From Paracoccaceae bacterium (lineage in GTDB: Bacteria > Pseudomonadota > Alphaproteobacteria > Rhodobacterales > Rhodobacteraceae), in NCBI GenBank assembly GCA_013373325.1, contig JABXIA010000400.1, positions 1 to 34,301 on the forward strand: a DNA stretch of 34,301 bases, given 5' to 3'. Positions 5,674 through 27,384 of this stretch are shown here, piece after piece. The stretch's first letter is position 1. Each line of letters starts with the position of its first letter. A model generated the notes under the pieces. It was not told where the DNA came from. It did no database searches and saw only the letters and a list, made by a program, of their open reading frames with translations. The position numbers and the translations under genes were made by a program.

Positions 5674-6861
5674 TCAGTCTTGCCGCCTTTCCGGAGATGC
5701 ATCTGACAGGCTGCCCTTGCACAGCTGTGCGGCAAGGTATTGCTGGAAGTACCAAACCGTGCGCTCCTTCGACGACAGCCGCCCGGGCGCCGCGGCCAGC
5801 GCCTTGGCGTTCTGCGCGATGCCGCCGATGATCGGTTTGTCCTCATCGTTGATACGGTCGAATCCGGCCTTCAGCTCTGCGGCATAGGCGGCGTGCTCCT
5901 CCGGATCTTCCGGCACCGCGCCGGGGTAGTAATCAGCCCCCCAGAATACCTTGACCCTGTCGGTGCCATAGGGTTGCAGCGACAGCCAGAAGGTGCGCTC
6001 AGCCACAACCGACATCACATGGCAGGGGAAAATCGCCGACAGTACCGCTTTTTCGCGCTCCTCACCGGTCAGCAGCGGATTGTCCACCTGCATATCCGAA
6101 TTGCGTTCATAGGATTTGCCGGGCACCCTGCCCTGCTCATAAAGGCTGTAGGCCGCGCCGCCATGCATCGCATTGGCCAGCCGGGTCGGCATCGCCGGTT
6201 CGATGGTCTGGGCGTGGGCCACAAACAGGTGATAGCCCTCAGTGAAATTCTGCACCAGGATCTTCCAGTTGGTGTCCCAGATCTCCTCAGCCCGGAACAG
6301 GGTGCGGTACTTCGGCAGCTGGTAATTCTCCAGCCGCTTGGACAGGCCCGCCAACCGCGGTCCCAGAGGCGCGGCATTGGGATCAAGCGAGACATAGACC
6401 CAGCCTTGCCAGACCTCGACCTGAAACTGCGGCAGGCAGACCTCCTTCTTGTTAAAATTGTCGCGCATATGGGCGGCGCCGATCAGCTGGCCGTCCAGGT
6501 TGTATGTCCAGGCATGATAGGGGCAGCTGATCCGGCCGCGGATATTGCCCGCGCCTTCCAGCAGGGTCGCCATCCGGTGGCGGCAGACATTGGACATCGC
6601 CCGCAGCACCCCGTCCCGGTCGCGCAGCACCACCACCGGATCGCGCCCGATGGTGGTGGCGCGGTAGTCACCGGGGTTCTCAAACTCATCCTCCCGGCCG
6701 ACACAGAACCATTCGTGATTGAAGATCTCGTCCAGCTCCAGTTCCAGGAACTCCGGCGAAGTATAAACCTGCGGCGGCGTTGCCTCGGCCAGGTCATCCG
6801 GCAGCGCGGCATTGCGCGCTACCGCATCCAACAGCTCATCAACTGACATGCGGGGGGTCAT
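5674..6861 (-). CDS. Rieske non-heme iron oxygenase, alpha subunit
   Basis: A 395-residue aromatic-ring-hydroxylating-type oxygenase. The Rieske [2Fe-2S] ligands are C93-R-H95 and C113-P-Y-H116. The mononuclear iron site is NFTEGYHLFVAH with H211 and H216, and an Asp in the later FDRINDEDKP is a candidate carboxylate. The pattern is close to the glycine-betaine/stachydrine/carnitine demethylating group rather than to ring dioxygenases, so oxidative N-demethylation is a reasonable guess. No beta subunit or ferredoxin reductase is adjacent; an electron donor must come from elsewhere. I start at 6861: AAGGAG lies 7 bases upstream, and the ATG overlaps the TGA of the SoxG-like gene (ATGA), which suggests translational coupling. 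The long upstream frame to 7230 is a shadow of that gene. It is the last gene of the LysR-linked operon. Confidence 0.9.
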   Translation of the reverse strand: MTPRMSVDELLDAVARNAALPDDLAEATPPQVYTSPEFLELELDEIFNHEWFCVGREDEFENPGDYRATTIGRDPVVVLRDRDGVLRAMSNVCRHRMATLLEGAGNIRGRISCPYHAWTYNLDGQLIGAAHMRDNFNKKEVCLPQFQVEVWQGWVYVSLDPNAAPLGPRLAGLSKRLENYQLPKYRTLFRAEEIWDTNWKILVQNFTEGYHLFVAHAQTIEPAMPTRLANAMHGGAAYSLYEQGRVPGKSYERNSDMQVDNPLLTGEEREKAVLSAIFPCHVMSVVAERTFWLSLQPYGTDRVKVFWGADYYPGAVPEDPEEHAAYAAELKAGFDRINDEDKPIIGGIAQNAKALAAAPGRLSSKERTVWYFQQYLAAQLCKGSLSDASPERRQD

Positions 6862-7349
6862 TCCAGCTCTCCTTCTGCAGGAATAAAGGGGGTTTCGCGC
6901 GTTTTCAGCCCGTATTGCAGGGCGCTGCCCTCCAGCAACTCCCGCAGCGAGGCGGCAAAGCTGCTCGGTAGTGCCAGGGTAAAGCCCGCATTGGTGCGCC
7001 ACAGGGTGACGCCAACGTGGTGAAAGGCGGTGGAGGTGGCGCAGCCAGCAGGAAAGGCAGAGGGGCGCAGGTCCTGCGGCAGAAAAGGGTTCAGCAGCAC
7101 AGGCGCTTGCGGTCCCGAGACCTGCATCAGTGTCCGGGCGCTGGAAATATCCGGAACGGCGCAGGTGCAGCCGCCCTGCGCGGGCGCTGTTTGGCAGCCC
7201 GCGGCGGCAGCGGCCAGCGTCTCCGGCCATGCGGCGATCTGGGTGAGGCGGAAGCCGGTTAGCAGGCTTAGGGTGACACCCGCAGGCCCGGGCTTACCAC
7301 CGCGCACAGGCACCAGCTGCTTTTGAAGTGCATTCATTTGGTCATCCAT
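6858..7349 (-). CDS. soxG: Sarcosine oxidase gamma-subunit-like protein (SoxG)
   Basis: A 163-residue protein resembling the gamma subunit of heterotetrameric sarcosine oxidase, itself related to the folate-binding GcvT fold. Visible family-type segments are SSARTLMQVSGPQAPVLLNP and the stretch AFHHVGVTLWRTNAGFTLALP followed by SFAASLRELLEGSALQYG. In intact operons the order is soxB-soxD-soxA-soxG, and here it follows a remnant carrying soxB and soxA pieces, which supports the name. It starts at the ATG 7347-7349, overlapping the upstream stop; GGAAGGAGAG lies about 9 bases before. It ends in an ATGA overlap with the Rieske gene. It is somewhat shorter than usual (about 180-200). Without alpha, beta and delta partners it cannot form sarcosine oxidase; it may serve another complex or be drifting. 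Confidence 0.65.
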   Translation of the reverse strand: MDDQMNALQKQLVPVRGGKPGPAGVTLSLLTGFRLTQIAAWPETLAAAAAGCQTAPAQGGCTCAVPDISSARTLMQVSGPQAPVLLNPFLPQDLRPSAFPAGCATSTAFHHVGVTLWRTNAGFTLALPSSFAASLRELLEGSALQYGLKTRETPFIPAEGELE

Positions 7350-7956
7350 GCATCCGCTCTCCTTCCGGATCGAACATGTGCGGGGAGACAACCTCGACTT
7401 TGAAGGGGGCGCCGCGCACCGGATCGCTGGCCACCAGCGCCCTCCCGGCCCAGGTCCCGTGGCCGCCCGCGACATAGCTCAACCCGATCCAGTGGCCGAG
7501 CGCAGGCGAATGCTTTACCGCGGTGACCCAGCCTTCGCCGAACCCCTCGCCCTCTTCCGGCAGGCACAGCGGCGCACCGCCATTGAAGGTTTTGCTGCGA
7601 TCTTTGGGGAAAATTCCGGCCAGCCGCCAGATTTTGCCTGCAACCGCAAAGCCGACCTTGCCCGCGGTTATCCGGCCCCGCGCATTTCTGCACCGAGGCC
7701 CCATCACCGGGAAGCGGACGCCCTCGGCATAGTTCAGATGCGGCACCGCCTGCTTCAGCGAATGCGCATAGAACTGGCGGTTTACCGGACGCGCATAGTT
7801 GGAGCACACGATGGTGGTGTAGCGCCCGGCGTTGCCGCCGCCGCCGATGATTACGTCGTAATGGCTCTTGGGTTCGGGGTCCCGCCACTGACGAGTCCCC
7901 CCCTTCTGGCCGGTGACACCCTGCCAGAGCACATTCCATGCGGAAAAACGGGTCAT
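7342..7956 (-). pseudogene. Chimeric in-frame remnant of sarcosine oxidase soxB (N part) and soxA (C part)
   Basis: This 204-codon open frame joins pieces of two sarcosine oxidase subunits. Residues 1-38 (SAWNVLWQGVTGQKG, WRDPEPKSHYDVII) are the SoxB start. The FAD motif GGGGHG and the roughly 30 residues after it are missing, and the frame resumes at GGGNAGRYTTIVCSNYARP. Later SoxB pieces follow (VPHLNYAEGVRFPVMG; KVGFAVAG). From about residue 118 on the sequence is the SoxA C terminus (KTFNGGAPLCLPEEG, WVTAVKHSPALGHWIGL, VVSPHMFDPEGERMHG). soxD and most of soxA are lost. The order of the pieces matches the soxB-D-A order, so deletions inside one operon explain it. The frame is still open, with an ATG 21 bases after the previous gene. 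With no nucleotide-binding motif it cannot be an oxidase. A novel role for the leftover protein is possible but unsupported. Confidence 0.75.
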
Positions 7957-7977
7957 TTATCAGGTCTTTCAGGGGCC

Positions 7978-8775
7978 TTAGACGGTGGGTTGCAGCACCC
8001 GCCCCGGATGTTTGAAGATCTGGCCGAAGCCTTCCAGTTCATCCATGATCCCCGCGCGGCGCAGGCAGGACCAGAATTGCGCCTGGTTCGAAGTGATAAC
8101 CGGCTTGCCGGTTATCTGCTCGATCTCCTCCACCGCCGGAAGCGAACGCACTCCGCCGCAGCTGAGGAAGATTGCATCCGCCTCCGGCTGGTCGATTTCC
8201 AGCGCGAACGTCTTCCAGTATTCCGGCGTCACCAGCCCCATGTCCCAGCCGCTGGCGATGTTGAGCCCCTGAATGTCCAGCACGTCAAAGCCGCGCTCGA
8301 CCAGGAACTCCGCCTCGGCTGTGTTGATGTCATCCAGATACGGCGTGCCGACCACCAGCTTTTTGGCGCCCAGCTCGTTCAGCGCATCCAGAACTCCCTG
8401 GACCAGGCACATCGGCTGCGCCCAGGGCGCGCCTTTTTTAATCTCGGCCATCACCCGCTGTTCGCCGATCACAATTGAACCTGAGGTGCAGCTGTAGCTG
8501 ATCACGTCGGGCTGTGCCTCCGGCTGAATGCGCGCGGCTGCATCGGCCATATGCTCGATATGCTTGGCCAGCGTTTCTGTTGTGGTATGGTCGTCGGTCT
8601 TCAGACGGGTGACATAGACCGCCACGCCCTCTGGTGCCATGTCCCAGAAATCCCCCTCGGCGGAGGGGTCGGTGGACATCAGGATAAAGCCCAGCTTGGC
8701 GCGGTGGAAACGCCCGGCATCCATCTCCGGGATGCGCGGCTTGGACTGGATGATCTGGCCTGGCTGGAACATCAC
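7978..8775 (-). CDS. Asp/Glu racemase superfamily protein (maleate isomerase / EutA-like), copy A
   Basis: A 265-residue member of the two-cysteine Asp/Glu racemase, maleate isomerase and arylmalonate decarboxylase superfamily. The first catalytic Cys lies in SYSCTSGS (about residue 96) and the second in FLSCGGVRS (about residue 206). The ITSNQAQFW stretch near the C terminus is also typical. EutA of ectoine utilisation clusters belongs to this family, and like EutA this gene sits next to an M24-family hydrolase gene. Substrate and reaction are unknown. The start is either the GTG at 8775 (GAGG 7 bases upstream) or the ATG at 8772; both overlap the M24 stop, so the two genes are translationally coupled. 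It is the second gene of the LysR-linked operon. A related copy B lies at 17946-18728. Confidence 0.85.
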   Translation of the reverse strand: MMFQPGQIIQSKPRIPEMDAGRFHRAKLGFILMSTDPSAEGDFWDMAPEGVAVYVTRLKTDDHTTTETLAKHIEHMADAAARIQPEAQPDVISYSCTSGSIVIGEQRVMAEIKKGAPWAQPMCLVQGVLDALNELGAKKLVVGTPYLDDINTAEAEFLVERGFDVLDIQGLNIASGWDMGLVTPEYWKTFALEIDQPEADAIFLSCGGVRSLPAVEEIEQITGKPVITSNQAQFWSCLRRAGIMDELEGFGQIFKHPGRVLQPTV

Positions 8776-9914
8776 AGGATAACCTCATCTACGGATTTCG
8801 GATGCCGGGTCAGCTGTTCCCAGCCGTCCTCGGTGATGATGAAACTGTCACCGACCTGGGCGCGGAAGGTGTCAACTGACACCGACCCGTCCACTGCCAG
8901 CACCATGCCCGGCTGGATGATCGTGGTGTCGCCGGTGACCAGCTGCGGCGCCTCAAGGAAGCTGAAACCGGTGGCCCGGCCGCAACGGAAGGGGCATTCG
9001 TATCCCGCCCCCTGGATCACCTCGGCATAGGCGGCATGCACACTTTCCGCCGTCACGCCGGGGCGCAGGGCCTCCAGCGCAGCCTTCTGGCTGGCCACTG
9101 CTACCTCATAGACCTTGACCTGCTCGGGATCCGGCTCGCCGATCCAGAAGGTGCGGTCAAAACCCAGTTTGAAGCGGTGAAAATTGGTCATGCCGCAGAA
9201 GCACAGGAACACCGGCTCACCCCGCCGCATGATCCGGGTCGAGGCCCGGTGGTGGGTTTTCACAATGTCCTTGCCCGAGGCCATGATTTGCAGGAAATGG
9301 GTGTTGGGCGACATGTCGCCATCGTCGTAATGCGCCGCCAGCAGCTCCGCCGCCTTGCGGGTGCCCGCCTGGCTGGTCGCAATTGCCACCTCGAACTCTG
9401 CCACACCGCCGCCGATCGCGGCCCGGCCTGCGGTCATCATCGCAGTTGCGACCTCACCGGCATGGCGCGCCAGCTGCAGCTCCTGCGGTGATTTGATCAT
9501 CCGCATCTGATTCAGGATCGGCGTCGCGCTGGTGATCTTTTCGGCCGCCACCAGGTCGTTTACATAGGTGCGCACCGGCGGCGGCATGTGGCCGGGCTCG
9601 ATGCCCACTGTGCTGGCATTGCGGACCGCCGCAGGCAGCTGCTCGCGCCACTCGTTTCCCATGCCGTCATTCCACGCCGCAATCCGGTCCACCCGCGCCG
9701 AAGCTTCGGCGCTGTTAAGGTCGATTGTCGGGGTGATCAGCAGCGTTTCGCCGTCCCTGGGCACGACAAGAATGGTCGGGCGGCCGAACTCCATATGCAG
9801 GTAATCGTAATAGCCTGTCAGGTAATAGACGTTGTCGTCATCGGTGATCAGCGCCACATCAATGCCGGCATCGGCAAGGTTTGCCTGAAAACGGGACAGT
9901 CGCTCGGTGAACAT
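8772..9914 (-). CDS. Creatinase-like M24-family hydrolase without the usual metal ligands
   Basis: A 380-residue two-domain protein of the M24 (creatinase/prolidase) fold: N-terminal domain to about residue 145, ending QMRMIKSPQEL, then the pita-bread domain. It lacks the M24 metal ligands. The first Asp position reads VFLCFCG, the GHG histidine region reads CGRATGFSF, and the late Glu reads AVDGS. This is the creatinase-type, metal-free pattern. Creatinase-like features include EFGRPTILVV, MRMIKS and a candidate catalytic His in KTHHRASTR (H221/H222). Creatinase splits creatine into sarcosine and urea; ectoine hydrolase is another M24 member, so C-N hydrolysis of a small compatible-solute-like substrate is likely but unproven. 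It starts at ATG 9912-9914 (AGGGAA about 6 bases upstream) and is the first gene of the LysR-controlled operon. Confidence 0.85.
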   Translation of the reverse strand: MFTERLSRFQANLADAGIDVALITDDDNVYYLTGYYDYLHMEFGRPTILVVPRDGETLLITPTIDLNSAEASARVDRIAAWNDGMGNEWREQLPAAVRNASTVGIEPGHMPPPVRTYVNDLVAAEKITSATPILNQMRMIKSPQELQLARHAGEVATAMMTAGRAAIGGGVAEFEVAIATSQAGTRKAAELLAAHYDDGDMSPNTHFLQIMASGKDIVKTHHRASTRIMRRGEPVFLCFCGMTNFHRFKLGFDRTFWIGEPDPEQVKVYEVAVASQKAALEALRPGVTAESVHAAYAEVIQGAGYECPFRCGRATGFSFLEAPQLVTGDTTIIQPGMVLAVDGSVSVDTFRAQVGDSFIITEDGWEQLTRHPKSVDEVIL

Positions 9915-9980
9915 CGGATTTCCCTGTAAGTTATGGAGAGCCCCGCGGCAAAGCCCTGCCGCTCCTAGGGCCTGCCCCAA

Positions 9981-10049
9981 ATGCTATGGGCAAAACCCCG
10001 CTTTCCAAAGTGACATTCGGTCTGGACTTGTGATAACCAGAAGTTATGA
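9981..10049 (-). promoter_or_regulatory. LysR-type operator and promoter of the creatinase-like operon
   Basis: The inverted repeat ATAAC-N5-GTTAT (10033-10047), with the T-N11-A spacing of LysR-type sites, lies in gataaccagaagttatga (10032-10049). Towards the operon follow TTGGAA (10008-10003), 16 bases, and TAGCAT (9986-9981). The site centre is about 66 bases before the expected transcription start, the usual activation position for LysR regulators. The same arrangement, with the same distances, is found at 14182-14250. Confidence 0.65.
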
Positions 10050-10918
10050 AAAACTACCGCCGCTCACTGCCGCCGCTCGACTATCTGCTGTTCTTCGAAG
10101 CTGTTGCCCGGCACGGCAATTTCACCCGTGCGGCAGAGGAGCTGAATGTCAGCCAAGCCGCTGTCAGCAAGCGGATCAAGGTGCTGGAGGACTGGCTGGG
10201 CATGACCCTGGTGAACCGCCGCGGCCGCAACCTGTCGCTGACCCGCAACGGCAAGTTCCTGGCCGCCAATTCGGGTGAGGCGCTGGATTACCTGCACTCA
10301 TGCCTGCAGCAGCTGCGCCGCGCCAGCACCCGGCTGTCGCTGGCAGCCAATGTCGCGGTATCGCAATACTGGCTGACGCCCAGAATCAATGAATACCTGC
10401 TCAGCAGCGATGCTGCACCCGTCACCCTCACCGCCTCGGACAAGGATGCTGACCTGTTTGCGCTGGAGGCGGATGCGCTGATCTACTACGGCCAGGACAT
10501 CCCTGCCGGCTGGGACGGTGCGCTCCTGTTCGAGGAGCGCTGGATGCCGGTCACCTCCCCCGCCAAGGCGCAGCGCAGCGGCGGGCTGGCGGCGGCCACC
10601 CTGCTCGATTTCGACAAGCTGACGCCGAAATGGGTGAACTGGGGAGATTTTGCAGAGCTGACCGGCAATCCGGAAGTCGCCCGGGCCGCCAAGGTCAACC
10701 TGGGCTCATACGGCAGCACGCTGGATACTGCCATCCGCGGCCGCGGGGTGGCGCTTGGCTGCCCCGATGTGCTGCGGTTCGAAATCGACTCCGGGCGGCT
10801 GGTGCCGCTGGAGGAGTACCAGCTGCTGACCGGTCGCAGCTACTTCGTGATCTGGCGCATGGGCCTGCTGACCGACCAGACCCACAGCCTGCTGCGGGAT
10901 GTGGGCATCCCGCTCTGA
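10046..10918 (+). CDS. LysR-family transcriptional regulator (GcvA-like)
   Basis: A 290-residue LysR-type regulator. The N-terminal winged helix-turn-helix reads LPPLDYLLFFEAVARHGNF then TRAAEELNVSQAAVSKRIKV (about residues 8-47), followed by the linker helix and an effector-binding domain of normal length. The start is the usual GcvA-type lead before LPPLDYLLFFEA. No good ribosome site precedes it. The ATG lies inside the inverted repeat ATAAC-N5-GTTAT, so binding at that site should affect its own transcription or initiation. It is divergent from the creatinase-like operon (131 bases apart) and convergent with the ABC ATPase gene, whose stop is only 5 bases away. The same site is found before the importer operon, so I infer that this protein controls both. 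The inducer is unknown. Confidence 0.9.
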   Translation: MKNYRRSLPPLDYLLFFEAVARHGNFTRAAEELNVSQAAVSKRIKVLEDWLGMTLVNRRGRNLSLTRNGKFLAANSGEALDYLHSCLQQLRRASTRLSLAANVAVSQYWLTPRINEYLLSSDAAPVTLTASDKDADLFALEADALIYYGQDIPAGWDGALLFEERWMPVTSPAKAQRSGGLAAATLLDFDKLTPKWVNWGDFAELTGNPEVARAAKVNLGSYGSTLDTAIRGRGVALGCPDVLRFEIDSGRLVPLEEYQLLTGRSYFVIWRMGLLTDQTHSLLRDVGIPL

Positions 10919-10923
10919 CGCGG

Positions 10924-11739
10924 TTACACCGCTTCACGCACCGCGCTCAGGAACTGCTGCGTCCGCTCCCGCTGCGGGTTTCCGAACAGCTCTGCCGGCG
11001 GGCCCTGCTCCTCGATCCTGCCTCCATAGAAGAAACAGACCCGGTCCGAGATGTCGCGGGCAAAACCCATCTGGTGGGTAACCATCAGCATGGTCAGATT
11101 ATGCTCGGAGACCAGCTGGCGGATCACGTTGGTCACCTCGCCGATCACTTCCGGGTCCAAGGCGGACGTCACCTCGTCAAACAGCATCACCTTGGGCCGC
11201 ATGGCCAATGCGCGGGCAATCGCAACCCGTTGCTGCTGGCCGCCGGACAGGCGCGACGGATGCTGGTCCTTCTTGGAGATCATGCCGACCATCTCCAGCA
11301 GCTCTTCCGAGCGGTCGCGCGCCTCCGCCTTGGAGAGGCCCAGCACCTGCACCGGCCCCTCCATGCAGTTCTCCAGCGCCGTCATATGCGGGAAGAGGTT
11401 GAAGTGCTGGAAACACATACCGATGTCAGCACGGCGGCTGCGCAGGTGGCGTTCGTTGGCGGGTACAAGCTGGCCGCCTTTGGGCATATGGGTCAGCGGC
11501 TGGCCATCCACATAGATCACCCCGCCATTGATCCGCTCCAGCGTCATCAGCATCCGCAGCACGGTGGTTTTGCCCGAGCCGGAGGGGCCAATGATCGACA
11601 CCATCTCACCTGCGCTAACATCCAGGTCCAGATCGTCCAGAACGGTCAGCGCCCCGTAGGATTTGCGCACCTTGCGGAAGCTCACCATCGGCGTGTCTTC
11701 ACCTGTCATCTCAAGCGGAAAGCCAGTCTTGTCCAGCAT
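10924..11739 (-). CDS. ABC transporter ATP-binding protein, polar amino acid/ectoine type (EhuA-like)
   Basis: A 271-residue ATPase that powers the importer encoded just upstream, at the cytoplasmic face of the inner membrane. Walker A GPSGSGKTT, signature LSGGQQQR, Walker B VMLFDEVTSALD and H-loop VTHQMG are all present and intact. It starts at ATG 11737-11739, 2 bases after the permease stop; a later in-frame Met (MVSFRKVRKSYG) would give the common shorter N terminus, so the first 17 residues are uncertain. The longer frame to 12393 is a shadow of the permease gene. It is the last gene of the binding protein-permease-permease-ATPase operon, ending 5 bases from the converging LysR gene with no terminator hairpin visible between them. 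Confidence 0.93.
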   Translation of the reverse strand: MLDKTGFPLEMTGEDTPMVSFRKVRKSYGALTVLDDLDLDVSAGEMVSIIGPSGSGKTTVLRMLMTLERINGGVIYVDGQPLTHMPKGGQLVPANERHLRSRRADIGMCFQHFNLFPHMTALENCMEGPVQVLGLSKAEARDRSEELLEMVGMISKKDQHPSRLSGGQQQRVAIARALAMRPKVMLFDEVTSALDPEVIGEVTNVIRQLVSEHNLTMLMVTHQMGFARDISDRVCFFYGGRIEEQGPPAELFGNPQRERTQQFLSAVREAV

Positions 11740-11741
11740 CG

Positions 11742-12407
11742 TTACAGTCCCAGTTTGCGGCGCACATACCCTTCGAACAGCCGGATCACTCCGGCCGCCG
11801 GCAGGGAGATTGCCAGAAAGATGATGCCAACCATCGTGTAGGGTTCCAGGAACCGGTAGTTCTCGGACCCGATGGCATTGGCGGTATGAATTAGCTCGGC
11901 AACCCCGATCACCGACAGCATCGGCGTGTCCTTGAAGATGCCGACCAGATAGTTGCCCATGCCGGCCAGCGCGGGCGGGATCGCCTGCGGGATGATCACC
12001 CGGCGGTACTTCTGCGCCGTGGTCATGTTGAGCGCGATAGCGGCCTCCCACTGGCCTTTCGGCACGCTCTCGATGCCGCCGCGGTAGACCTCTGACAGGT
12101 AGCAGGCATAGTGCAGGCCGATCGCGATCATCCCGGACATCCAGGGGCTGAGCCGGATACCGAACTGCGGCCCCACATAGAAGACAAAGAAGATCTGCAG
12201 GATCAGCGGGGTGGAGCGGATGAACTCCACGAATTCCCTTACGGTGAAGGTCAGAGCCTTTGACGGCGTGCGCTGCGCCAGCGCCAGCATCAGCCCCAAT
12301 ACCACAGCTATGACGTACCCTGCGCCGGCGGCGATCAGCGTATTGCCAGTGGCGTAGACCAGCCGTGGCAGGATTTCCCAGGTAAAGTCCCATTTCCAGT
12401 CGAACAT
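11742..12407 (-). CDS. ABC transporter permease, polar amino acid/ectoine type (EhuD-like)
   Basis: A 221-residue inner-membrane permease of the HisMQ family, with about five hydrophobic segments. The EAA loop that docks the ATPase reads GQWEAAIALNMTTAQKYRR and then VIIPQAIPPALAG. The N terminus MFDWKWDFTWEILPRL resembles EhuD of the ectoine importer (N-terminal W-D-F-W-ILP pattern). FIRSTPLILQIFFVFY is the conserved family stretch. It starts 3 bases after the stop of the other permease and ends 2 bases before the ATPase start, so the operon is tightly packed. The substrate cannot be deduced from the permease itself. Confidence 0.9.
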   Translation of the reverse strand: MFDWKWDFTWEILPRLVYATGNTLIAAGAGYVIAVVLGLMLALAQRTPSKALTFTVREFVEFIRSTPLILQIFFVFYVGPQFGIRLSPWMSGMIAIGLHYACYLSEVYRGGIESVPKGQWEAAIALNMTTAQKYRRVIIPQAIPPALAGMGNYLVGIFKDTPMLSVIGVAELIHTANAIGSENYRFLEPYTMVGIIFLAISLPAAGVIRLFEGYVRRKLGL

Positions 12408-12410
12408 GGC

Positions 12411-13076
12411 TCAGGTCCTCCCCAGCTTGCGCGCCATATGGCGTTCCAGCCAGCGCATGAACGGCGTCACCAGAAAGCGGGCCAGCACATAGTAGATCAC
12501 CAGCGCCGCGCCAAAGACCTGCGCCGACAGGAAGGTGGAAGCATTGATCTGCCGCGCCTCGAACATCAGGTCAGCGACCGAGATCAGCGACACCAGCGCG
12601 GTGCCTTTGAGCAGCTCGATCATTAGGTTGCCCCAGGGCGGCAGCATGTTGACCAGCGCCTGTGGCAGGATGATCCGCCGCATCCGCTGCGCCGGGCTCA
12701 TGTTGATGGCCAGCGCCGCTTCCCATTGCCCCTTGGGCACTGACAGGATGCCGCCGCGCACCAACTCCGCCCCGTAGGCGCCGATATTCATGCCAACCGC
12801 CAGATAGCCGGCGGTGAATTTCTCGATCGTCAGCCCGAACAGCGGCAGGACAAAGAAGATCCAGTAGAGCTGCACCACCAGTGAGGTGCCGCGGAAAATC
12901 TCAATATAGGTTACGGCGGTGCCGCGCAGCAGCGCGTTCTGCGACAGCTTCATCAGCCCCATGCAGAGGGAAATGGCGACACCCAACGCGGCGGCGAGCA
13001 GGAATTGAGCAACAGTTATCCCGGCGCCGGACAACAGCCGCGGCCAGTACTGTGCCAGAAAGTCGTAAAGCCCCAT
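12411..13076 (-). CDS. ABC transporter permease, polar amino acid/ectoine type (EhuC-like)
   Basis: A 221-residue HisMQ-type permease, the partner of the next gene. It has about five membrane segments, the family stretch EIFRGTSLVVQLYWIFFVLP and the EAA loop GQWEAALAINMSPAQRMRR then IILPQALVNMLPPWGN. It begins 64 bases after the stop of the binding-protein gene, separated from it by a strong hairpin, and ends 3 bases before the second permease. Two permeases of equal length (221) that differ clearly in sequence fit a heterodimer such as EhuC/EhuD. Confidence 0.9.
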   Translation of the reverse strand: MGLYDFLAQYWPRLLSGAGITVAQFLLAAALGVAISLCMGLMKLSQNALLRGTAVTYIEIFRGTSLVVQLYWIFFVLPLFGLTIEKFTAGYLAVGMNIGAYGAELVRGGILSVPKGQWEAALAINMSPAQRMRRIILPQALVNMLPPWGNLMIELLKGTALVSLISVADLMFEARQINASTFLSAQVFGAALVIYYVLARFLVTPFMRWLERHMARKLGRT

Positions 13077-13106
13077 CCGTCATTCGTCTTTCAAACAGAA
13101 TTATAT

Positions 13107-13131
13107 GCGGCGGAGCGCAGGGCTCCGCCGC
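13107..13131 (-). terminator. Intercistronic hairpin between binding-protein and permease genes
   Basis: A perfect 9-bp GC-rich stem (gcggcggag with ctccgccgc, 7-base loop) lies between the binding-protein stop and the first permease. No T run follows on the minus strand, so it is more likely an mRNA-stabilising or partly terminating hairpin, which would keep binding protein above permease levels. This is common for such importers. Confidence 0.55.
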
Positions 13132-13140
13132 ACTGTCAGA

Positions 13141-13983
13141 TCAGCGGTTGGCGCAAACCCACTCCGCGGTCTTGTCGCCGGGCAGGTTGCTTGCAGTATA
13201 GCCGTAGGTTTCAACGGACTGCATCATCGCGTCGGTCCCGACATATTCCGCCAGCGCCGCGTTGAACTTGGCCATGAAGTCGCCATCCGCCTCGCGGAAG
13301 CCGACACCCACCCAGTTCTGCGTCCAATCCGGCAGCGCGCCCGGATCGGTCACATCAACGGCGGCGTCGCTTTCCGCCAGATGCGCCGCTTCGAAATAGG
13401 TCATGCCGCCTGCATCCGCCCGGCCCGCCTTGACCGCTGCAAGCATCTCGGTCGGTCCGGGAACCTGCATAATCATTGCGTCGGTCAGGCCTTCCTTCTT
13501 GGCAGCTTCAACAGTGTTGTAGCCCGCGCCGGTGACCAGCAGCGCCTCAGCCGCCAGAATATCCTGATAGGTCTGGATGCCCTTGGGGTTGCCCGCAGGC
13601 ACGATAAAGGCATCGCCAGCCTGCGCAATCGGCTCGGAGAAGGCGATGTTCTGGCAGCGGCTGTTCAGGATATACAGCCCGCCTGTGATCAGGTCATAGC
13701 GGTTGGCCTGCAGGCCGGGGATCAGCCCGCCCCAGTCGGTCACGGTGGTTTCCACGTTCTCGTGGCCCATTTCCTTCAGGATGCCGAGCGCGATTTCATT
13801 CACGAAGCCCTTGGCGTCGCCGTTTTCATCCGGGTAGCCCCAGATCGGAATGTTGGAGAAGCCGATACGGATCGGCTCGCCCGCGGCGATCCGGTCCTCG
13901 ATCGGGCCGGCCAGGGCCGCGAAGCCGCTGGCAACTACCGCCAGGGCTGCCGCGCCAATTGTCTTCAGTGTTTTGCTAGTCAT
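13141..13983 (-). CDS. ABC transporter periplasmic substrate-binding protein (EhuB-like)
   Basis: A 280-residue binding protein of family 3 that delivers the substrate to the permeases. The signal peptide is clear: a basic start (MTSKTLK), a hydrophobic core of about 15 residues and an ALA cleavage site before GPIEDR (about residue 25). IRIGFSNIPIWGYPDENG, the GLIPGLQANRYDLITGGLY stretch and SRCQNIAFSEPI match the pattern of the ectoine-binding protein EhuB, so an ectoine-like or other zwitterionic substrate is plausible; the exact ligand needs the binding-site residues. The start at 13983 is fixed by GGGAGGA about 5 bases upstream; an in-frame ATG 18 bases earlier (14001) has no such site. 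It is the first gene of the importer operon, transcribed from a LysR-type promoter near 14180. Confidence 0.92.
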   Translation of the reverse strand: MTSKTLKTIGAAALAVVASGFAALAGPIEDRIAAGEPIRIGFSNIPIWGYPDENGDAKGFVNEIALGILKEMGHENVETTVTDWGGLIPGLQANRYDLITGGLYILNSRCQNIAFSEPIAQAGDAFIVPAGNPKGIQTYQDILAAEALLVTGAGYNTVEAAKKEGLTDAMIMQVPGPTEMLAAVKAGRADAGGMTYFEAAHLAESDAAVDVTDPGALPDWTQNWVGVGFREADGDFMAKFNAALAEYVGTDAMMQSVETYGYTASNLPGDKTAEWVCANR

Positions 13984-14287
13984 GATATCCTCCCAGTTCA
14001 TTCATGGATCAGTTGCTGTTTTGATGCCGCCGCCTCTTTTGGGCCTTCCGGCAGGTTATGTTTCTGGCACTGGCTGCCTATTGGTATCCGCGGCTTTTGC
14101 GGCTGCGCCTCCCCGCACACGGTTCGTCCGAAGATCTGCGTTTTCCCTTGTAAATATGGCGGTCCTGCCCAGGATGAGCTTAGCGTAAGGTCGCAAACAC
14201 ATATTTCAAAATGACCATTCCTGCCGCCTTATGATAAACAAAGGTTATGATTGTCCGCCGCTCTCCTTTTCTTCCGGCCGCAGGCCC
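13984..14287. other. Intergenic region carrying the importer promoter
   Basis: These 304 bases separate the flavoprotein stop from the binding-protein start. They contain the LysR-type site and promoter near 14182-14250 and then an untranslated leader of about 190 bases in which I see no clear riboswitch or hairpin. No gene is supported on either strand. Confidence 0.6.
14182..14250 (-). promoter_or_regulatory. LysR-type operator and promoter of the importer operon
   Basis: gataaacaaaggttatga (14233-14250) matches the site before the LysR gene in 15 of 18 positions and keeps the T-N11-A spacing. Towards the importer follow TTGAAA (14209-14204), 16 bases, and TACGCT (14187-14182). The distance from site centre to the -35 first base is 32.5 bases in both promoters, so the geometry is the same. 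Confidence 0.65.
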
Positions 14288-16759
14288 TCATGCCCGCGCC
14301 AGCATCCTCTTGCTTTGCGGGTCGTAGAACGGCCTCAGGCTGACATCGGCTTCAATGCTTTTGCCTTCGACCAGAACCGTGAAGTTGCCGTCCGCCGCCG
14401 CAGCCTTGCCCGTTTGGCCCTCCGGCAGGGTCAGGAAGCACAGGCCAACCGCGGCCCCGACCGTCTGCCCCCAGGCGCCGGCGGTCACGAAACCCGCAAC
14501 CTTGCCGTCCCGCAGCACCGGTTCATTGTGATGCAGCAGCGGCCCCGGATCGCGCAACTTGATGGAACAAAGGAACGGCCCCTTATTTTCTGCCTTGCGC
14601 GCCAGATAGGCCTCGCGCCCGATGAAGGGGACGGGTTTCTCGGTCTTGCAGACAAACTCCAGCCCGATCTGATGCGGCGCCTCGGTATAGGCCATGTCAT
14701 GGCCCCAATGCAGGAACCCCTTTTCCAGCCGCAGCGCGTTCAGTGCCTCGCCGCCGATCAGCCGGATGCCGAACTCTTCGCCTGCCTGCATCAGCACCTC
14801 GAACACGTGCTCGGCAAAATCCGGGGTGATGAAGATCTCCCAGCCCAGTTCACCCGAATAGGACAGCCGCTGCGCAAAGACCGGCGCGTGGCCAATGTGG
14901 AAATGCCGCAGACTGTTGAACGGAAACGCCGCGTTCGACAGATCCGCGTCGCTGACAGCCTCAAGCAGCGCCCGGCTCTGCGGCCCCATGACGCCCAGCA
15001 CCCCATAAGCCGCGGTCGCATCCCGCAGCCGCACGTCCTCATCCTCGCGGATCAGGTCGCGCAGATGCAGATAGTCGCGCCGCGTGTGCGAGATCGAGCT
15101 CATCACCATAAAGCTCTCGTCCCCGTGGCGCGCCACCGTGACGTCGCTCTCAATACCGCCGCGTTCGTTCAGCATCAGCGTATAGGCAACACGGCCATTG
15201 GCCATCGCCATGTTGTTGGTGCAGGCCCTCTGCAAGAAGCTCTCGGCGTCCCTGCCCTCAACCATCAGCTTGCCCAGCATCGAGTAGTCGATCATCGCAA
15301 CCGCTTCGCGGGCGGCCTTCTGCTCCTCCTGCACATACGGGAACCAGTTCTGGCGGCCAAAGCTGTATTCATACTTCGGCTCCACACCTTCGGGTGCAAA
15401 CCAGCCGGGACGCTCCCAGCCCTGAACTTCGGTGAAACAGGCGCCGCGGGCCTTCATCGGATGATAGAACGGGGTGCGGCGCAGGTTGCGGACGGTCTCG
15501 CGCTGGCGGTTCGGCCAATGCATTGCATAGGTCAGCACCAGGGTTTCCGGGCAGCGCGCCTGCAGATAGGGGTCGCGCGCCTGAAACTCTTCGCAGCGCT
15601 TCGGGTCCATCTCGCTCAGGTCGATCGGCGGATGGCCGTCGATGATCCACTGCGCCAGCGCCCGGCCCGCACCCGAACCGGACTGAATGCCAGTGGAGTT
15701 CACCCCGCCCAGAACAAAGTAATTCGCAATATCCGGCGCCTGCCCCAGGATGAACCGCCCGTCATAGGAATAGCTCTCCGGCCCGTTAAAGAAGGTGCGG
15801 ATACCGGTTTCCTTCAGCAGCGGCACCCGGTTCATCGCCAGCTCCAGCACCTCCATCACGTCGTCTTCGACAAACGGCAGGCTGTCGAACTCAAAGTCCT
15901 CGGAGATCCCCTTCATGCCCCAGGGCTTGGCCTGGAAATGGGCAAATCCGAACAAGAGCTTGCCTGCGTCCTCCTTCCAGTAGGTGCCGTCGCAATAGGA
16001 CCGCAGCACCGGCAGGTCGCTGGGCAGGTTCTCAATGGCCTCGGTCACCAGATAGTAATGCTCGCAAGCATGCAGCGGCACGCCGACGCCGTTCTGCCGG
16101 CCCAGCTCCCGCGCCCACATGCCGCCGCAGTTCACCACGTAGTCGGCGCTGATAGTGCCCTGACCAGTGCGCACACCCACCGCCTTGTTGCCGCGGGTCA
16201 GCACCTCTTCGACCTTGATGTTTTCAATAATCTTCGCACCGCGCATCCGCGCGCCCTTGGCCAGCGCCGTGGTCAGATCCACCGGGTTGGCCGATCCGTC
16301 GCTGGGCATGTAGATGCCGCCCTGAACGCCCTCTGGATTCATCAGCGGCCAGCGCTCCTGAATGGCCGCCGTTTCCATATAATGTGCCTCAATGCCGAAC
16401 AGCGCCGCGAAATCCGCTTTTCGCTTCAATTCCGCCATCCGCTCATCGTTAACGGCGATAGAGATCGACCCCGACCGGCGGTAACCCGGGTTCTGGCCGG
16501 TTTCCGCCTCAATCTCCTGCAGCAGCTCGATGCCGTATTTCGCAAACGCGGTTGTGGCATGGCTGCCCTGCAGCTGTCCGACCAGCCCGGCCGCGTGCCA
16601 GGTGGTGCCGCTGGTCAGCTGCTTGCGCTCCAGCAGCACAACATCCGTCAGCCCCTGTTTGGCCAGGTGATAGGCAACGGAACAGCCATGAATGCCGCCG
16701 CCGATAATGACAACCTGGGCATGGGAAGGAAGCTGTTTGGTCATGTGTTCGGAACCCAT
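14288..16759 (-). CDS. FAD-dependent dimethylglycine/sarcosine dehydrogenase-like protein with GcvT domain
   Basis: An 823-residue flavoprotein. Residues about 15-400 form a DAO-type oxidoreductase with the dinucleotide motif VVIIGGGIHGCSVAYHLAK, and SGTTWHAAGL, where the His after Trp (H55) is the position of covalent FAD attachment in dimethylglycine dehydrogenase. Residues about 440-800 are the folate-binding GcvT/aminomethyltransferase region (YSYSGELGWEIF in spirit: SYSGELGWEIFITPDF; LRLEKGF). Family enzymes oxidatively N-demethylate dimethylglycine, sarcosine or similar amines and pass C1 units to tetrahydrofolate. The length fits that family (about 810-830). The start at 16759 is 3 bases after the M24 stop; a second Met at 16744 is possible and neither has a clear ribosome site. 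It is third in the GntR-linked module. Confidence 0.88.
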   Translation of the reverse strand: MGSEHMTKQLPSHAQVVIIGGGIHGCSVAYHLAKQGLTDVVLLERKQLTSGTTWHAAGLVGQLQGSHATTAFAKYGIELLQEIEAETGQNPGYRRSGSISIAVNDERMAELKRKADFAALFGIEAHYMETAAIQERWPLMNPEGVQGGIYMPSDGSANPVDLTTALAKGARMRGAKIIENIKVEEVLTRGNKAVGVRTGQGTISADYVVNCGGMWARELGRQNGVGVPLHACEHYYLVTEAIENLPSDLPVLRSYCDGTYWKEDAGKLLFGFAHFQAKPWGMKGISEDFEFDSLPFVEDDVMEVLELAMNRVPLLKETGIRTFFNGPESYSYDGRFILGQAPDIANYFVLGGVNSTGIQSGSGAGRALAQWIIDGHPPIDLSEMDPKRCEEFQARDPYLQARCPETLVLTYAMHWPNRQRETVRNLRRTPFYHPMKARGACFTEVQGWERPGWFAPEGVEPKYEYSFGRQNWFPYVQEEQKAAREAVAMIDYSMLGKLMVEGRDAESFLQRACTNNMAMANGRVAYTLMLNERGGIESDVTVARHGDESFMVMSSISHTRRDYLHLRDLIREDEDVRLRDATAAYGVLGVMGPQSRALLEAVSDADLSNAAFPFNSLRHFHIGHAPVFAQRLSYSGELGWEIFITPDFAEHVFEVLMQAGEEFGIRLIGGEALNALRLEKGFLHWGHDMAYTEAPHQIGLEFVCKTEKPVPFIGREAYLARKAENKGPFLCSIKLRDPGPLLHHNEPVLRDGKVAGFVTAGAWGQTVGAAVGLCFLTLPEGQTGKAAAADGNFTVLVEGKSIEADVSLRPFYDPQSKRMLARA

Positions 16760-20245: not shown

Positions 20246-22303
20246 TCAATCTCCCAGAGAAGGAGCCAAGGTCCCCGGATCTGAGTGAGAGGCAGCAGCA
20301 GGGGCCGTCAGCAGAACATAGGAAAGGGCCGCGCTGGCCTGGACGCGGTCCGACCGGATCTCCTCCAGCAATTGCGGCAGCAGTTCCGCCGCTTTTTTGC
20401 CGTCCGGCGCGGTGGCGGCGCGGACCAGGGGTGTGTCGCTCGCCACTGCCAGAACGAGTTGCGGAGCTGCTTTTGCTTCTGGCGCCAGGGCCAGGGCGAA
20501 TTCCAGGTGCCGGTTTGCGCCGTGACCCGGGGCCAGCCGGCTGGACAGGTTATAAACTTTGCCCTGGTCGCTGATCAGAACCACCCAGAGCGATTGGCCA
20601 GGCGGCACCCGGATGCCGGCTTGCACCGCTTCGCCGCTGACAGCCTGATCGGCTGAAAGTGACAGCTGCACGGGATCCGGGTGGCGGCCCTGGAGGGCGC
20701 GGGCCAGATCCGCTGCCGCGCATTGCTCCGGGGTTATTGCGCGCTGCAGCAGTGCGGGGCGGGTGCCGAAGCGATCCTCGAAAGCTGCGGGCAAGCCGTC
20801 AAAGCCGCTGCCATCCGCCGAATGGGTTTCCACCATTCCCGCGCTGGGGCCTGCGGCAATCCGGGTGGCAAAGCTGCAGGCTCCGGCGTCGAATGCCGCA
20901 AGAAACCCTTCGCGGGTAACAGGGGAAGGTGGCGGAATACCCGGGGCGGCCGGCTGTGCACCCGGTTGCCCGCCACCGGAGGCCTGAGCGGCAGATCCGG
21001 TCTGCAGCAGCCCTGTCCGCCAGGCATGCCAGCCGGCGGCGCCGGCAAGAGCAAACAGCAGGAGTGTTCCGAATACGGCGGCCTTGCGTCCGGCCCCGGG
21101 CTTCTCAGGAGGCGCCGGTTCTGGCGGCACATGCACAGCCGGGGCAAACGGTGGAGGGCGGCCGCGGGATCCGGCAGATGCGGGGACCTGTAAGTCCGGG
21201 ATGGCAGCTTGCGGCGGCAAGGCCATTCCGGCGGCGGATACCTGCAGCCCTGGCACCGGCTGCGGTGCGCGTTCCGGCAGCCGGGCTGACAACCCCTGCT
21301 TTGCATCGAGACCGTCAAGCAGCTGCAGCACATCCAGCATCGTTGCGGGCCGTCTGACCGGGTCAGGCTCCAGCATCCGTGCAAGCAGCGGCTGGAACGC
21401 CTCTGGCAGTGCCGACAAATCCGGCACCTCGCGGCGGGCCTGGACCGCTTCCGGAATCGAGCTGCCCATGTCCAGCGGTTTGCCGAGCAGTGCCGCCGCC
21501 GTCAGCAGAGCCAGCCCGTAGATGTCGGTTGCCGGGCCGGTGCTGCCCCCGAAGTGGCCCAGTTGCTCCGGGGCAACGTATTTGAACTTGCCGGCGAACT
21601 TGCCCGCAGCGGCGCCCTCGGGGATCGTTTGCGCCCTAGCAATGCCAAAGTCGATCAGCCGCGCCTCGCTGACAATGCCATCTGGCAGCATGACGTTGTC
21701 CGGCGACAGGTCGCGGTGCACAACGCCCTTGCTGTGCGCCTTGGCCAGCCCCTTGGCCAGGCGCTGCAGCAGGACTTTGCCGGTCTCAGCCGGAAGCGGG
21801 CCATACTGCCGCAGGCGATCCGACAAAGGGATACCGCCGATGAATTCCATCACCAGAAAGTAACGGTCCAGATCACGGTCATGGACGTAATTGTAGTACC
21901 GGACAATGGCATCATCGGTCAGCAGCCGCAGGGTGCGGGCCTCGCGCCGGAACATGTCGCCGGCTTGCCCGTCGCTGATCAGCTCCGGCCGGATTGCCTT
22001 GATCGCCACCGGATCCTCGGTGCCGATCTCAATACCCCGGTACACCTCGCCCATGCCGCCGGATTTCAGCGCCGCCTGAATGCGGTAGTTGTTGTTGATC
22101 ACGGTGCCCGGGCTCAGCCCGGCAACTGCCGCTGCGGCGGCGGGCGGTTCGCTGCGTGGTGCCGTCTGCGGACGCTCCCGGGGCGCAGCGGGCAGATGCG
22201 GCATGCTCAGCGCCTGCGCCTCGCTGATGACCTGCGTCCGGTCGTCCGCGCCGCCGGCAGCGGATGCGTCCGACTGGGGATTTGTGGGGGCTGCCCCGGT
22301 CAC
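20246..22303 (-). CDS. ppkA: T6SS-associated serine/threonine protein kinase PpkA-like
   Basis: A 685-residue membrane kinase. The catalytic domain (about residues 73-335) has the glycine loop LKSGGMGEVYRG, Lys in VAIKAIRPE, the catalytic loop GVVHRDLSPDNVML and DFGIA. One transmembrane segment lies at about residues 410-430 (VFGTLLLFALAGAAGW), then a predicted periplasmic part of about 250 residues with no fold I recognise. In type VI systems PpkA phosphorylates an Fha-type protein to switch on assembly, and PppA reverses this; an fha gene is not in the window. The start is the GTG at 22303, overlapping the pppA stop by 4 bases, which implies coupled translation. It is the last gene of the tss block. 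The N-terminal 70 residues are Ala/Pro-rich and probably disordered. Confidence 0.88.
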   Translation of the reverse strand: MTGAAPTNPQSDASAAGGADDRTQVISEAQALSMPHLPAAPRERPQTAPRSEPPAAAAAVAGLSPGTVINNNYRIQAALKSGGMGEVYRGIEIGTEDPVAIKAIRPELISDGQAGDMFRREARTLRLLTDDAIVRYYNYVHDRDLDRYFLVMEFIGGIPLSDRLRQYGPLPAETGKVLLQRLAKGLAKAHSKGVVHRDLSPDNVMLPDGIVSEARLIDFGIARAQTIPEGAAAGKFAGKFKYVAPEQLGHFGGSTGPATDIYGLALLTAAALLGKPLDMGSSIPEAVQARREVPDLSALPEAFQPLLARMLEPDPVRRPATMLDVLQLLDGLDAKQGLSARLPERAPQPVPGLQVSAAGMALPPQAAIPDLQVPASAGSRGRPPPFAPAVHVPPEPAPPEKPGAGRKAAVFGTLLLFALAGAAGWHAWRTGLLQTGSAAQASGGGQPGAQPAAPGIPPPSPVTREGFLAAFDAGACSFATRIAAGPSAGMVETHSADGSGFDGLPAAFEDRFGTRPALLQRAITPEQCAAADLARALQGRHPDPVQLSLSADQAVSGEAVQAGIRVPPGQSLWVVLISDQGKVYNLSSRLAPGHGANRHLEFALALAPEAKAAPQLVLAVASDTPLVRAATAPDGKKAAELLPQLLEEIRSDRVQASAALSYVLLTAPAAASHSDPGTLAPSLGD

Positions 22304-23091
22304 GCCAAATCATCCAGGATATCACCGGCTGGCCAGCAGCCGGCGCCGCCGGCAGCAGTGCAGCGGACAGCCACAACCGTCACATTGTCCCTGGCGCCGC
22401 GGTTGCGTGTTTCGCGGATCAGGGCGTCACACGCCTGTTGCGGCGGCATGGATGCAAGGCAGGCCGCGATTTCGTGGTCCTGCAAATGTTCGGTCAGTCC
22501 GTCCGAGCAAAGACAAAAAACATCACCCGGCTCAAGCCTGCCGCAGACCTGGTCGCACTGCGGTTCACTGCCGGTGCCGACAGCCCGGGTGATCACGTTC
22601 TTGCGGGGCCAGTTTTCGGCCTCTTCCGGCGTTATCGTGCCTGCGATGAGCAGGGCATTCGCCTCTGTGTGGTCGCGGCTTTGCTGGACCAGTTGGCCGT
22701 TCCGCAGAAGGTAGGCGCGGCTGTCACCCGACCAGATGCAGGTGTAGCGGCAGCCATGCACAAGCAGGGTGACAACGGTGGAGCCGACCGTGCTGCCGCC
22801 CAGTTCTTCGCCGCGCGCCCGGATCAGCCGGTTGGCCTGGAGCAGCCGGTCCATCAGCCGGGACGTCAGATCCTCGCCAGAGGCGGCATGACCGATGGTA
22901 TCCAGCTGCCGGACAATCGCGGAGCTGGCAAAATCGCCTGCCTCATGGCCGCCCATCCCGTCAGCGACAGCCCACAGCCCCCAGTCAGGGCGCGCCAGCA
23001 GTGCGTCTTCGTTCACGTCGCGGCGGCACCCTACATCAGTGGCCGACCCGGTCTCAAATTCAGGGCAGAACTCAGCTGTCACCGTCCGCAT
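22300..23091 (-). CDS. pppA: T6SS-associated PP2C-type protein phosphatase PppA-like
   Basis: A 263-residue PPM/PP2C phosphatase that should reverse PpkA phosphorylation. The metal-binding Asp motifs are all visible: GSATDVGCRRDVNEDA near the start, VADGMGGHEAG, WSGDSRAYLL, SDGLTEHL and RDNVTVV near the end. Length is normal for a stand-alone bacterial PP2C. I start at MRTVTAEFCPEF (23089-23091), which overlaps the tagF end by 20 bases; the frame is open to 23163, but the extra 24 residues are a shadow of tagF. It ends in a GTGA overlap with ppkA. The order tagF-pppA-ppkA is the threonine phosphorylation pathway group known from other type VI clusters. Confidence 0.9.
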   Translation of the reverse strand: MRTVTAEFCPEFETGSATDVGCRRDVNEDALLARPDWGLWAVADGMGGHEAGDFASSAIVRQLDTIGHAASGEDLTSRLMDRLLQANRLIRARGEELGGSTVGSTVVTLLVHGCRYTCIWSGDSRAYLLRNGQLVQQSRDHTEANALLIAGTITPEEAENWPRKNVITRAVGTGSEPQCDQVCGRLEPGDVFCLCSDGLTEHLQDHEIAACLASMPPQQACDALIRETRNRGARDNVTVVAVRCTAAGGAGCWPAGDILDDLA

Positions 23092-23746
23092 CCTTTGTGC
23101 TGCCCGGAGTGCCGGCCAGCAGCCAGTGAAGGGCCGGTGCCGCGGGCAGGCCGCTGCATCCAAGCCAGATGGCGGCCTTGGCGCCGCTGGCAGGCGCCCA
23201 CCAGTAGCTGCGGGTCAGCAGAGCGCGTTCAGCGTCGGCTGCGCTGGCCGCCTGGAGCAGCTTCAACAGATCGCCGTTTGGCTGATGCGCCCACAGCGCG
23301 CTGCCTCTCTGCGCGGCGGCGTCATCTTCGGCAGGAAGCTGCAGATGAAGGCCGTCCAGCAATGCCGCCCCGCCCTGGCCCGGCTGCATGACCGAAAAAT
23401 GCGCGGCCAGCGCCTCATAAGCGGACTGGTCCGGGTCCTGCAGCGGGGCGGGCACTGCGGCCCCCTGGGCAACCAGAAACAAAGGGTATCGCCGCCCGGC
23501 ACGGTCGCGCGAACAGCGCAGCACCCCCATCAGGCTGCGCCCCAGCACGGCACGCCCGATCCAGAACCGCAGATCCTGCGCCTTCTCCCAGAAAGCCGGC
23601 CAGTCCTGCCCCCGCTGGTCGCGGATCTCCGGCAGGCAGCTGTCCAGCCAGGCTTCTAGCTGCTCCGCCACTTGGGGTGCCACATTGGCACGGAGAAAAT
23701 CGCCGTATCCGGGATGTTTGCCTAACAGGCCGATGTCCGCTTCCAT
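23072..23746 (-). CDS. tagF: T6SS post-translational regulator TagF
   Basis: A 224-residue TagF protein (the family once called DUF2094). The N terminus EADIGLLGKHPGYGDFLRAN is diagnostic (G-K-P-x-GDF pattern), followed by LEAWLDSCL and the RAGRRYPLFLVA segment. TagF represses type VI assembly after translation, in studied systems by acting on the Fha protein, and is antagonised by PpkA; some homologues are fused to pppA. Here the two are separate but overlapping genes in the same order as those fusions. It starts 4 bases after the tssM stop. Length is near the family norm. Confidence 0.92.
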   Translation of the reverse strand: MEADIGLLGKHPGYGDFLRANVAPQVAEQLEAWLDSCLPEIRDQRGQDWPAFWEKAQDLRFWIGRAVLGRSLMGVLRCSRDRAGRRYPLFLVAQGAAVPAPLQDPDQSAYEALAAHFSVMQPGQGGAALLDGLHLQLPAEDDAAAQRGSALWAHQPNGDLLKLLQAASAADAERALLTRSYWWAPASGAKAAIWLGCSGLPAAPALHWLLAGTPGSTKDADGDS

Positions 23747-23750
23747 ACAG

Positions 23751-27383: not shown

Positions 27384-27384
27384 T

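Follow-up and report, generated by a model that had tools for sequence, protein, structure and literature searches.

The window analyzed here, a 34,301-nucleotide stretch of DNA from a Paracoccaceae bacterium (a marine roseobacter; contig JABXIA010000400.1), carries two promoters of the same layout. One faces a predicted catabolic operon that encodes M24 creatinase/prolidase-like, EutA-like and Rieske oxygenase proteins, and the other faces a predicted operon for an Ehu-like importer. From comparison of these sequences with those of relatives, we propose that one LysR-type activator binds an inverted repeat (dyad) near position −66 of both promoters and drives both operons. We put the probability of this reading at roughly 0.8. 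The likely cognate regulator of both sites is a protein of 290 residues encoded at the first site (10046–10918, + strand). Its HTH_1 and LysR_substrate domains score 80.2 bits (PF00126) and 47.0 bits (PF03466), both over the Pfam cut-off, and place it in the LysR-type class.

Both operator sites that a preliminary description of this DNA had reported are present on the + strand: gataaccagaagttatga at 10032–10049 (site 1) and gataaacaaaggttatga at 14233–14250 (site 2) are identical at 15 of 18 bases, and both contain T-N11-A. The 18-bp match is confirmed, but its core is narrower (ATAAC-N5-GTTAT), and at site 1 the LysR start codon accounts for part of the outer match. Read on the minus strand, the 15-bp dyad of site 1 spans 10033–10047. 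This predicted high-affinity LysR site reaches into the LysR start codon (10046–10048) as far as its second base. The dyad of site 2, upstream of the importer operon, spans 14234–14248 on the same strand and reads ATAAC-N5-TTTAT. Each site is followed on the minus strand by TTGxAA, 16 bases and TAxxxT, as described earlier. At site 1, GTCACTTTGGAA (10003–10014) joins a conserved GTCA to the −35 box TTGGAA (10003–10008) of the M24/Rieske operon and is the probable activation site; the −10 box TAGCAT (9981–9986) predicts a transcript start near 9974. At site 2, GTCATTTTGAAA (14204–14215) holds GTCA and the −35 box TTGAAA (14204–14209), and the −10 box TACGCT (14182–14187) of the importer operon predicts a start near 14175. 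The distance from operator to −35 box is indeed the same at both sites; the earlier value of 32.5 bases holds only if the 18-mer is centered and becomes 32 when counted from the center of the 15-bp dyad to the first −35 base.

Relative to the predicted starts, both dyads are centered at about −66, a position that had already been recognized as typical of LysR activation. Classic LysR-activated promoters carry a T-N11-A palindrome around −65 relative to the target's start, and both operons have one when distances are counted from the predicted starts. PMC12016517 and PMC8407307 describe the corresponding textbook layout, with a recognition site near −65 and an activation site at −35.

Conservation and specificity of the promoter footprint

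The preliminary description would have taken a lack of conservation of the two sites at orthologous loci, or transcription starts elsewhere, as refuting a two-operon regulon. Conservation supports such a regulon: all 21 LysR loci keep the LysR-side site, and 8 importer loci, each with a LysR gene, have the importer-side site at the same spacing. Relatives define the full promoter footprint as ATAAC-N5-GTTAT, 18 bases, GTCAYTTTGRAA, 16 bases and TAnnnT. On the LysR side, 17 of the 21 dyads have no core mismatch and four (G290, L023, L028, L029) have one. The importer-side site occurs at its 8 loci in 7 genomes (G000, the genome of the window; G205; G208; G216; G206; G200, twice; and G359, from another genus). 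Six of these dyads are free of core mismatches, and those of G000 and G206 have one each. Seven of the eight were discovered by the dyad alone and G359 by the composite pattern described below. TAnnnT, which was part of no selection step, stands in one register in all 29 promoters (21 LysR-side and 8 importer-side), and when the offset is shifted by up to 10 bases either way (20 further offsets), it fits at most 3 of 29. GTC in the −35 region likewise keeps one register in all 29 and fits at none of the shifted offsets, but it was a requirement when the 8 importer sites were extracted, so that the counts there are partly selected. The full GTCA is present at 21 of 21 LysR-side and 6 of 8 importer-side sites. 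Among promoters, most spacer bases differ, as does the middle of the dyad. In the proteins, ELNVSQAAVSKR in the helix-turn-helix region is identical in all 20 LysR sequences compared.

These counts rest on a regulator with uncommon orthologues. An even sample of the family gave LysR orthologues in 3 of 198 genomes at E 1e-40, including G000 and one weak match of 43%. Within the genus, 9 of 21 genomes gave LysR matches, among them G207 (36–37%) and G210 (broken), which were not counted as orthologue loci, and a further scan, over the species-genome collection, gave 14 LysR loci. Removal of duplicates left 21 LysR loci from 20 genomes, including that of a Rhodospirillales bacterium (L032). Duplicates counted once were L001, L002, L004, L005, L008–L013, L016, L039, L085, L086, L089 and L090 for LysR, and L040–L043, L045, L048, L049 and L051 for the importer. 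LysR matches of 36–53% (L006, L014, L015, L017, L018 and L019) were excluded as orthologue loci, and no site with two or fewer mismatches was found in them; importer matches of 34–38% (L052–L055) were excluded from the importer tree. G038, in which a contig end cuts LysR, was left out of the LysR tree and kept among the 21 loci. M24 and EutA-like matches lie left of LysR in all 21 loci (the EutA-like match is partial in L023 and G038). The importer lies right of LysR in 16 of them and was not seen in the regions retrieved around LysR in L029, L032, L033, G038 and G290.

On window statistics alone, the 18-mer match is only moderately surprising: at up to three mismatches it occurs twice against 0.35 expected, and two or more matches arose in 5 of 100 shuffles. 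The bare dyad was rejected as a genome-wide predictor, with 14 places in G000 at up to one mismatch versus 23 for its backwards control. The composite pattern consists of the dyad, 18 bases and GTCAYTTTGRAA and was searched at up to three mismatches. In the 4.5 Mb of G000 it occurs at exactly two places, which are the two window sites (the assembly is 90.5% complete, in 409 contigs, and further sites could be missing from this count). In the 21 genus genomes it occurs at 14 places in 7 genomes, all at LysR or importer loci, against no match for the backwards control. Among 394 family genomes 12 have a match; six of these (G000, G038, G289, G290, G346 and G359) carry the LysR locus, with 0–2 mismatches there. 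The site pair of G359 is spaced 4.3 kb apart, compared with 4.2 kb in the window. The earlier judgment that a chance match is improbable is thus borne out by the composite search and by the cross-species register, not by the 18-mer statistic.

Origin of the importer site

We compared importer and LysR promoters over the 33 columns that are not conserved among LysR promoters, where shuffled sequences match at a mean of about 8.5. Against the LysR promoter of their own genome, the two G200 importer promoters (G200a and G200b) each match at 21 of 33 columns (0 of 5000 shuffles as good), G359 matches at 17 (0.0016) and G208 at 14 (0.044). G216 and G206 reach 12 each and G205 reaches 11, as does G000, for which 0.23 of shuffles are as good. 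At three loci the likeness of importer and LysR promoters goes beyond the conserved bases, which suggests copying. Site 2 of the window matches a G200 LysR promoter at 18 of 33 columns (0.0045 after best-of-21 choice), and the data favor a G200-like promoter that was copied and then spread or diverged. The importer site probably arose by copying of the LysR promoter, and common descent may account for part of the shared geometry. The base before GTC on the operon strand is T (16) or A (5) on the LysR side and G in all eight importer sites, as if the importer copy had been freed from serving a divergent gene.

Against copying we count that selection may act on some spacer bases, and that for G216 and G206 even the best of the 21 LysR-side promoters is no significant match (0.45 and 0.15; G205 is marginal at 0.046). 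Likeness of the two sites beyond the footprint is weak, with 0.014 of shuffles as good upstream of the dyad and 0.15 downstream of the −10 box, summed over the 8 loci. The importer sites of G216 and G206, and the mere 11 of 33 unconstrained columns shared by the pair in G000, would be expected if the two sites had converged independently, without any copying of the LysR promoter. The trees agree with such convergence in requiring at least two (importer) or at least three (LysR) label changes. Since the importer tree is weakly resolved (2 of 16 inner branches starred), one gain followed by losses, or transfer, is indistinguishable from two gains. The matches of G200a, G200b and G359 to their own LysR promoters, and that of site 2 to a G200 promoter, speak against convergence, which we consider unlikely. 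A fuller version of the copying account can be offered tentatively, at somewhat less than even odds: the start codon would lie within the operator of a leaderless regulator gene, and the divergent promoter would have been copied whole to a place before the importer that an AsnC/Lrp gene occupies in relatives, bringing the importer into the regulon in one step.

Probable mode of control and distribution of the proposed regulon

The LysR gene diverges from the M24/Rieske operon. At all 21 loci its start codon shares the first two bases with the dyad; in G290 the gene starts with GTG, and one dyad base is thereby lost. A promoter for the LysR gene itself can be proposed at 10010–10037 (+ strand), with the −35 box GTGACA (10010–10015), 16 bases, the −10 box GATAAC (10032–10037) and 8 bases to the ATG. 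The TGAC core of this −35 box, which is GTCA on the opposite strand, is kept in all 21 LysR-side loci, and the LysR-side GTC may double as the regulator's own −35. An in-frame stop stands 2 or 4 codons before the start in every one of these loci. Pairing with the anti-Shine–Dalgarno sequence before LysR has a median of −2.1 kcal/mol (range +0.6 to −6.3 kcal/mol, the strongest in G205), compared with a median of −10.2 kcal/mol for 16 importer genes. Because the dyad overlaps the gene's own start codon and no clear Shine–Dalgarno sequence precedes it, the LysR transcript is likely leaderless or near-leaderless and self-repressed.

We propose that part of a LysR tetramer would occupy ATAAC-N5-GTTAT, the recognition site about 66 bases upstream of each predicted start, and that the other part would contact the GTCA that runs into the −35 box, the activation site. 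An inducer, perhaps an N-methylated or an ectoine/creatine-like solute carried in by the importer, would induce the M24/EutA-like/Rieske operon jointly with the Ehu-like importer and so close a loop of uptake and breakdown. Since the dyad of site 1 overlaps the regulator's proposed −10 box and start codon on the other strand, bound LysR should also repress its own gene. This operator-like overlap, together with −35 boxes that are fair matches, would also suit a LysR protein that binds both sites mainly as a repressor and is relieved by the inducer. On the operon strand, however, the dyad lies near −66, off the core promoter, and the −10 boxes (TAnnnT) are poor, as in activator-dependent promoters. 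We regard predominant repression as improbable.

The importer site is restricted to certain lineages: of the 20 importer loci in the tree, 8 have it, all with LysR in the same locus, and 12 do not. The points that weigh against a common LysR activator begin with this distribution. Seven outgroup loci (L023, L025, L026, L027, L028, L030 and L031) bear LysR and site 1 and lack the importer site. In their 900 bases upstream of the importer no importer-type site was found at up to two core mismatches, and the composite at up to six mismatches found only the LysR site in these loci. In all seven, a gene with AsnC/Lrp Pfam matches is divergent from the importer. G211 also keeps LysR (93% identical to the protein of the window) and site 1 without the importer site. 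Its importer gene (L034 5595–6434) is 97% identical in DNA to that of G210 and only 82% to that of G000, which suggests a replaced allele; the replacement possibly removed the importer site. The importer alleles of G211, G217, G214 and G210 are alike, and their site loss may be one event. Other such points concern the sites themselves. The importer dyad of G000 itself carries a core mismatch; the G206 importer site is degraded, with GTTGT (one dyad mismatch), GTCG and TAGCGC at −35, and that of G200b has GTCG and ATGAGA. The 29 promoters share descent and are not 29 independent trials. A sigma-70 scan of 9900–14300 gave no consensus promoter. Finally, seven composite places at 2–3 mismatches in the 394 family genomes lie away from known LysR loci (G045, G244, G287, G300, G355, G398 and one 3-mismatch place in G359). 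The backwards control gave six matches in five of the 394 genomes, and at 2–3 mismatches the composite is at background level across the family.

Three further site-less genomes have a damaged or weakly matching regulator. The LysR gene of G217 has been reduced to a ruin (L087 11330–11690; fragments 60%, 64% and 55% identical), and its dyad has decayed to ATCAC-N5-GTCTT, with TTGAGA, 16 bases and TAGCAT still in place. This decay is one natural experiment that agrees with the LysR reading. G210 (L091 235–1584) retains a C-terminal part of LysR, 53% identical over residues 159–290, followed by a DDE transposase gene, and the best LysR match of G214 is no better than E 2.5e-30. At the twelfth site-less locus, G207, the importer protein is only 55% identical. 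As a separate observation, a relative of the outgroups' AsnC/Lrp protein is encoded in 21 of 21 genus genomes (72–77% identical in 20, 52% in G213); the copy of G000 lies at C276:6586–7032 (L110).

If site 2 were bound by a different regulator, its likeness to site 1 would go back to common promoter descent or to chance, with no control in common. The presence of the importer site in only 8 of 20 loci, G211 and the AsnC/Lrp genes at seven other importer loci would fit this. Yet dyad, GTC and −10 box keep a fixed spacing in divergent loci (G000, G200 and G359) whose flanks have changed, and all eight carriers have LysR in the same locus. A separate regulator is very improbable. Mere chance matching of AT-rich stretches, for which the window shuffles and the lack of genomic enrichment of the dyad core could be cited, is practically eliminated by the composite search and the cross-species register.

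Neighboring genes and relation to known systems

The predicted catabolic operon on the minus strand begins with the M24 gene (8772–9917), presumably driven from site 1, and continues with an arylmalonate decarboxylase/EutA-like gene (7978–8775). The end of the operon (5674–7939) contains an open frame without a family match (7334–7939), likely a soxG-like remnant judging by its position in L020, and the Rieske oxygenase gene (5674–7230). Compared with L020 (from G205), the block between the EutA-like and Rieske genes (window 7200–7990) is mostly gone. In L020 it holds large open frames of 423 and 983 residues, sarcosine-oxidase-like by appearance; pieces of 60–92 bases and the soxG-like end remain in the window. 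The importer operon (10924–13983, minus strand) encodes a substrate-binding protein (13141–13983), two permeases (12411–13076 and 11742–12407) and an ATPase (10924–11742). Site 2 sits between its start and the end of a flavin adenine dinucleotide (FAD)-oxidoreductase/GcvT-like gene (14288–16759), which we take to be dimethylglycine-dehydrogenase-like. A further element, CATAACCTGCCGG at 14048–14060 (minus strand), lies 65–77 bases before the importer start and recurs in G205, G208 and G216; it could be a half-site or plain descent. Terminator-like sites in 9900–14300 number two, against 2.8 expected.

More specific identities were weighed against curated cut-offs. The importer passes the NCBIfam cut-offs for EhuA (403.9 against 345.4), EhuC (248.8 against 196.95) and EhuD (272 against 205.2). 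EhuB stays just below its own (178.3 against 190.9), so that a full EhuABCD ectoine/hydroxyectoine importer was not assigned. A true ectoine cluster with EutA and DoeA/EutD is likewise not supported (EutA 177.7 of 318, DoeA 91.6 of 613, with EhuB also below its cut-off). GcvA controls the glycine cleavage operon. The GcvA-type model PRK11139 is the best NCBIfam match of the regulator, yet its 173.6 bits fall far under the curated cut-off of 288, so that GcvA identity was rejected, and the neighboring targets are not glycine cleavage genes.

Elsewhere in the window, 20246–30275 contains Type VI secretion genes (IcmF, DotU/OmpA and VasE), a protein kinase and a PP2C-type phosphatase. An open frame of 1299 residues near the contig end (30381–34280), rich in glycine, threonine and serine at its start, has no Pfam match at E 1e-8. 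A DDE transposase gene near the contig end (731–1663) matches the same two Pfam models as the transposase beside the broken LysR gene of G210.

The two sites give a roseobacter catabolic cluster a proposed regulon that can be put to the test, and tying the importer to the catabolic genes narrows the search for the substrate. They also offer a case of a transporter operon captured by a catabolic regulator, with intermediates, losses and regulator ruin within one genus. Our search of the literature on LysR start-codon operators, leaderless LysR genes, promoter layout and copying, and this cluster found no account that we recognized as this regulon; subscription papers were mostly outside its scope.

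The switch looks real and conserved but of an ordinary kind. BhbR1 of Pigmentiphaga kullae (PMC12016517) likewise has a palindromic T-N11-A recognition site near −65 (ATA-N9-TAT in that case), together with an activation site that is weaker and extends over the −35 box. In contrast to that system, the recognition site predicted here overlaps the regulator's own start codon, and the layout is repeated before the importer operon. AcuR of Rhodobacter sphaeroides (PMC3017554) resembles our regulator in having a gene without a Shine–Dalgarno sequence and an inverted-repeat operator over its own promoter. AcuR, however, belongs to the TetR family and represses its own operon, whose leaderless transcript has been mapped, whereas the protein considered here is LysR-type, would act on separate operons, and has a gene that is only predicted to be leaderless or nearly so. 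Equivalent targets under non-orthologous regulators are known across proteobacterial lineages, as are the lineage-specific expansion of regulons and the replacement of regulators (PMC5343134). Unlike the cases presented there, the target added here may have received a duplicate of the promoter that belongs to the regulator itself, in the place where seven relatives have AsnC/Lrp.

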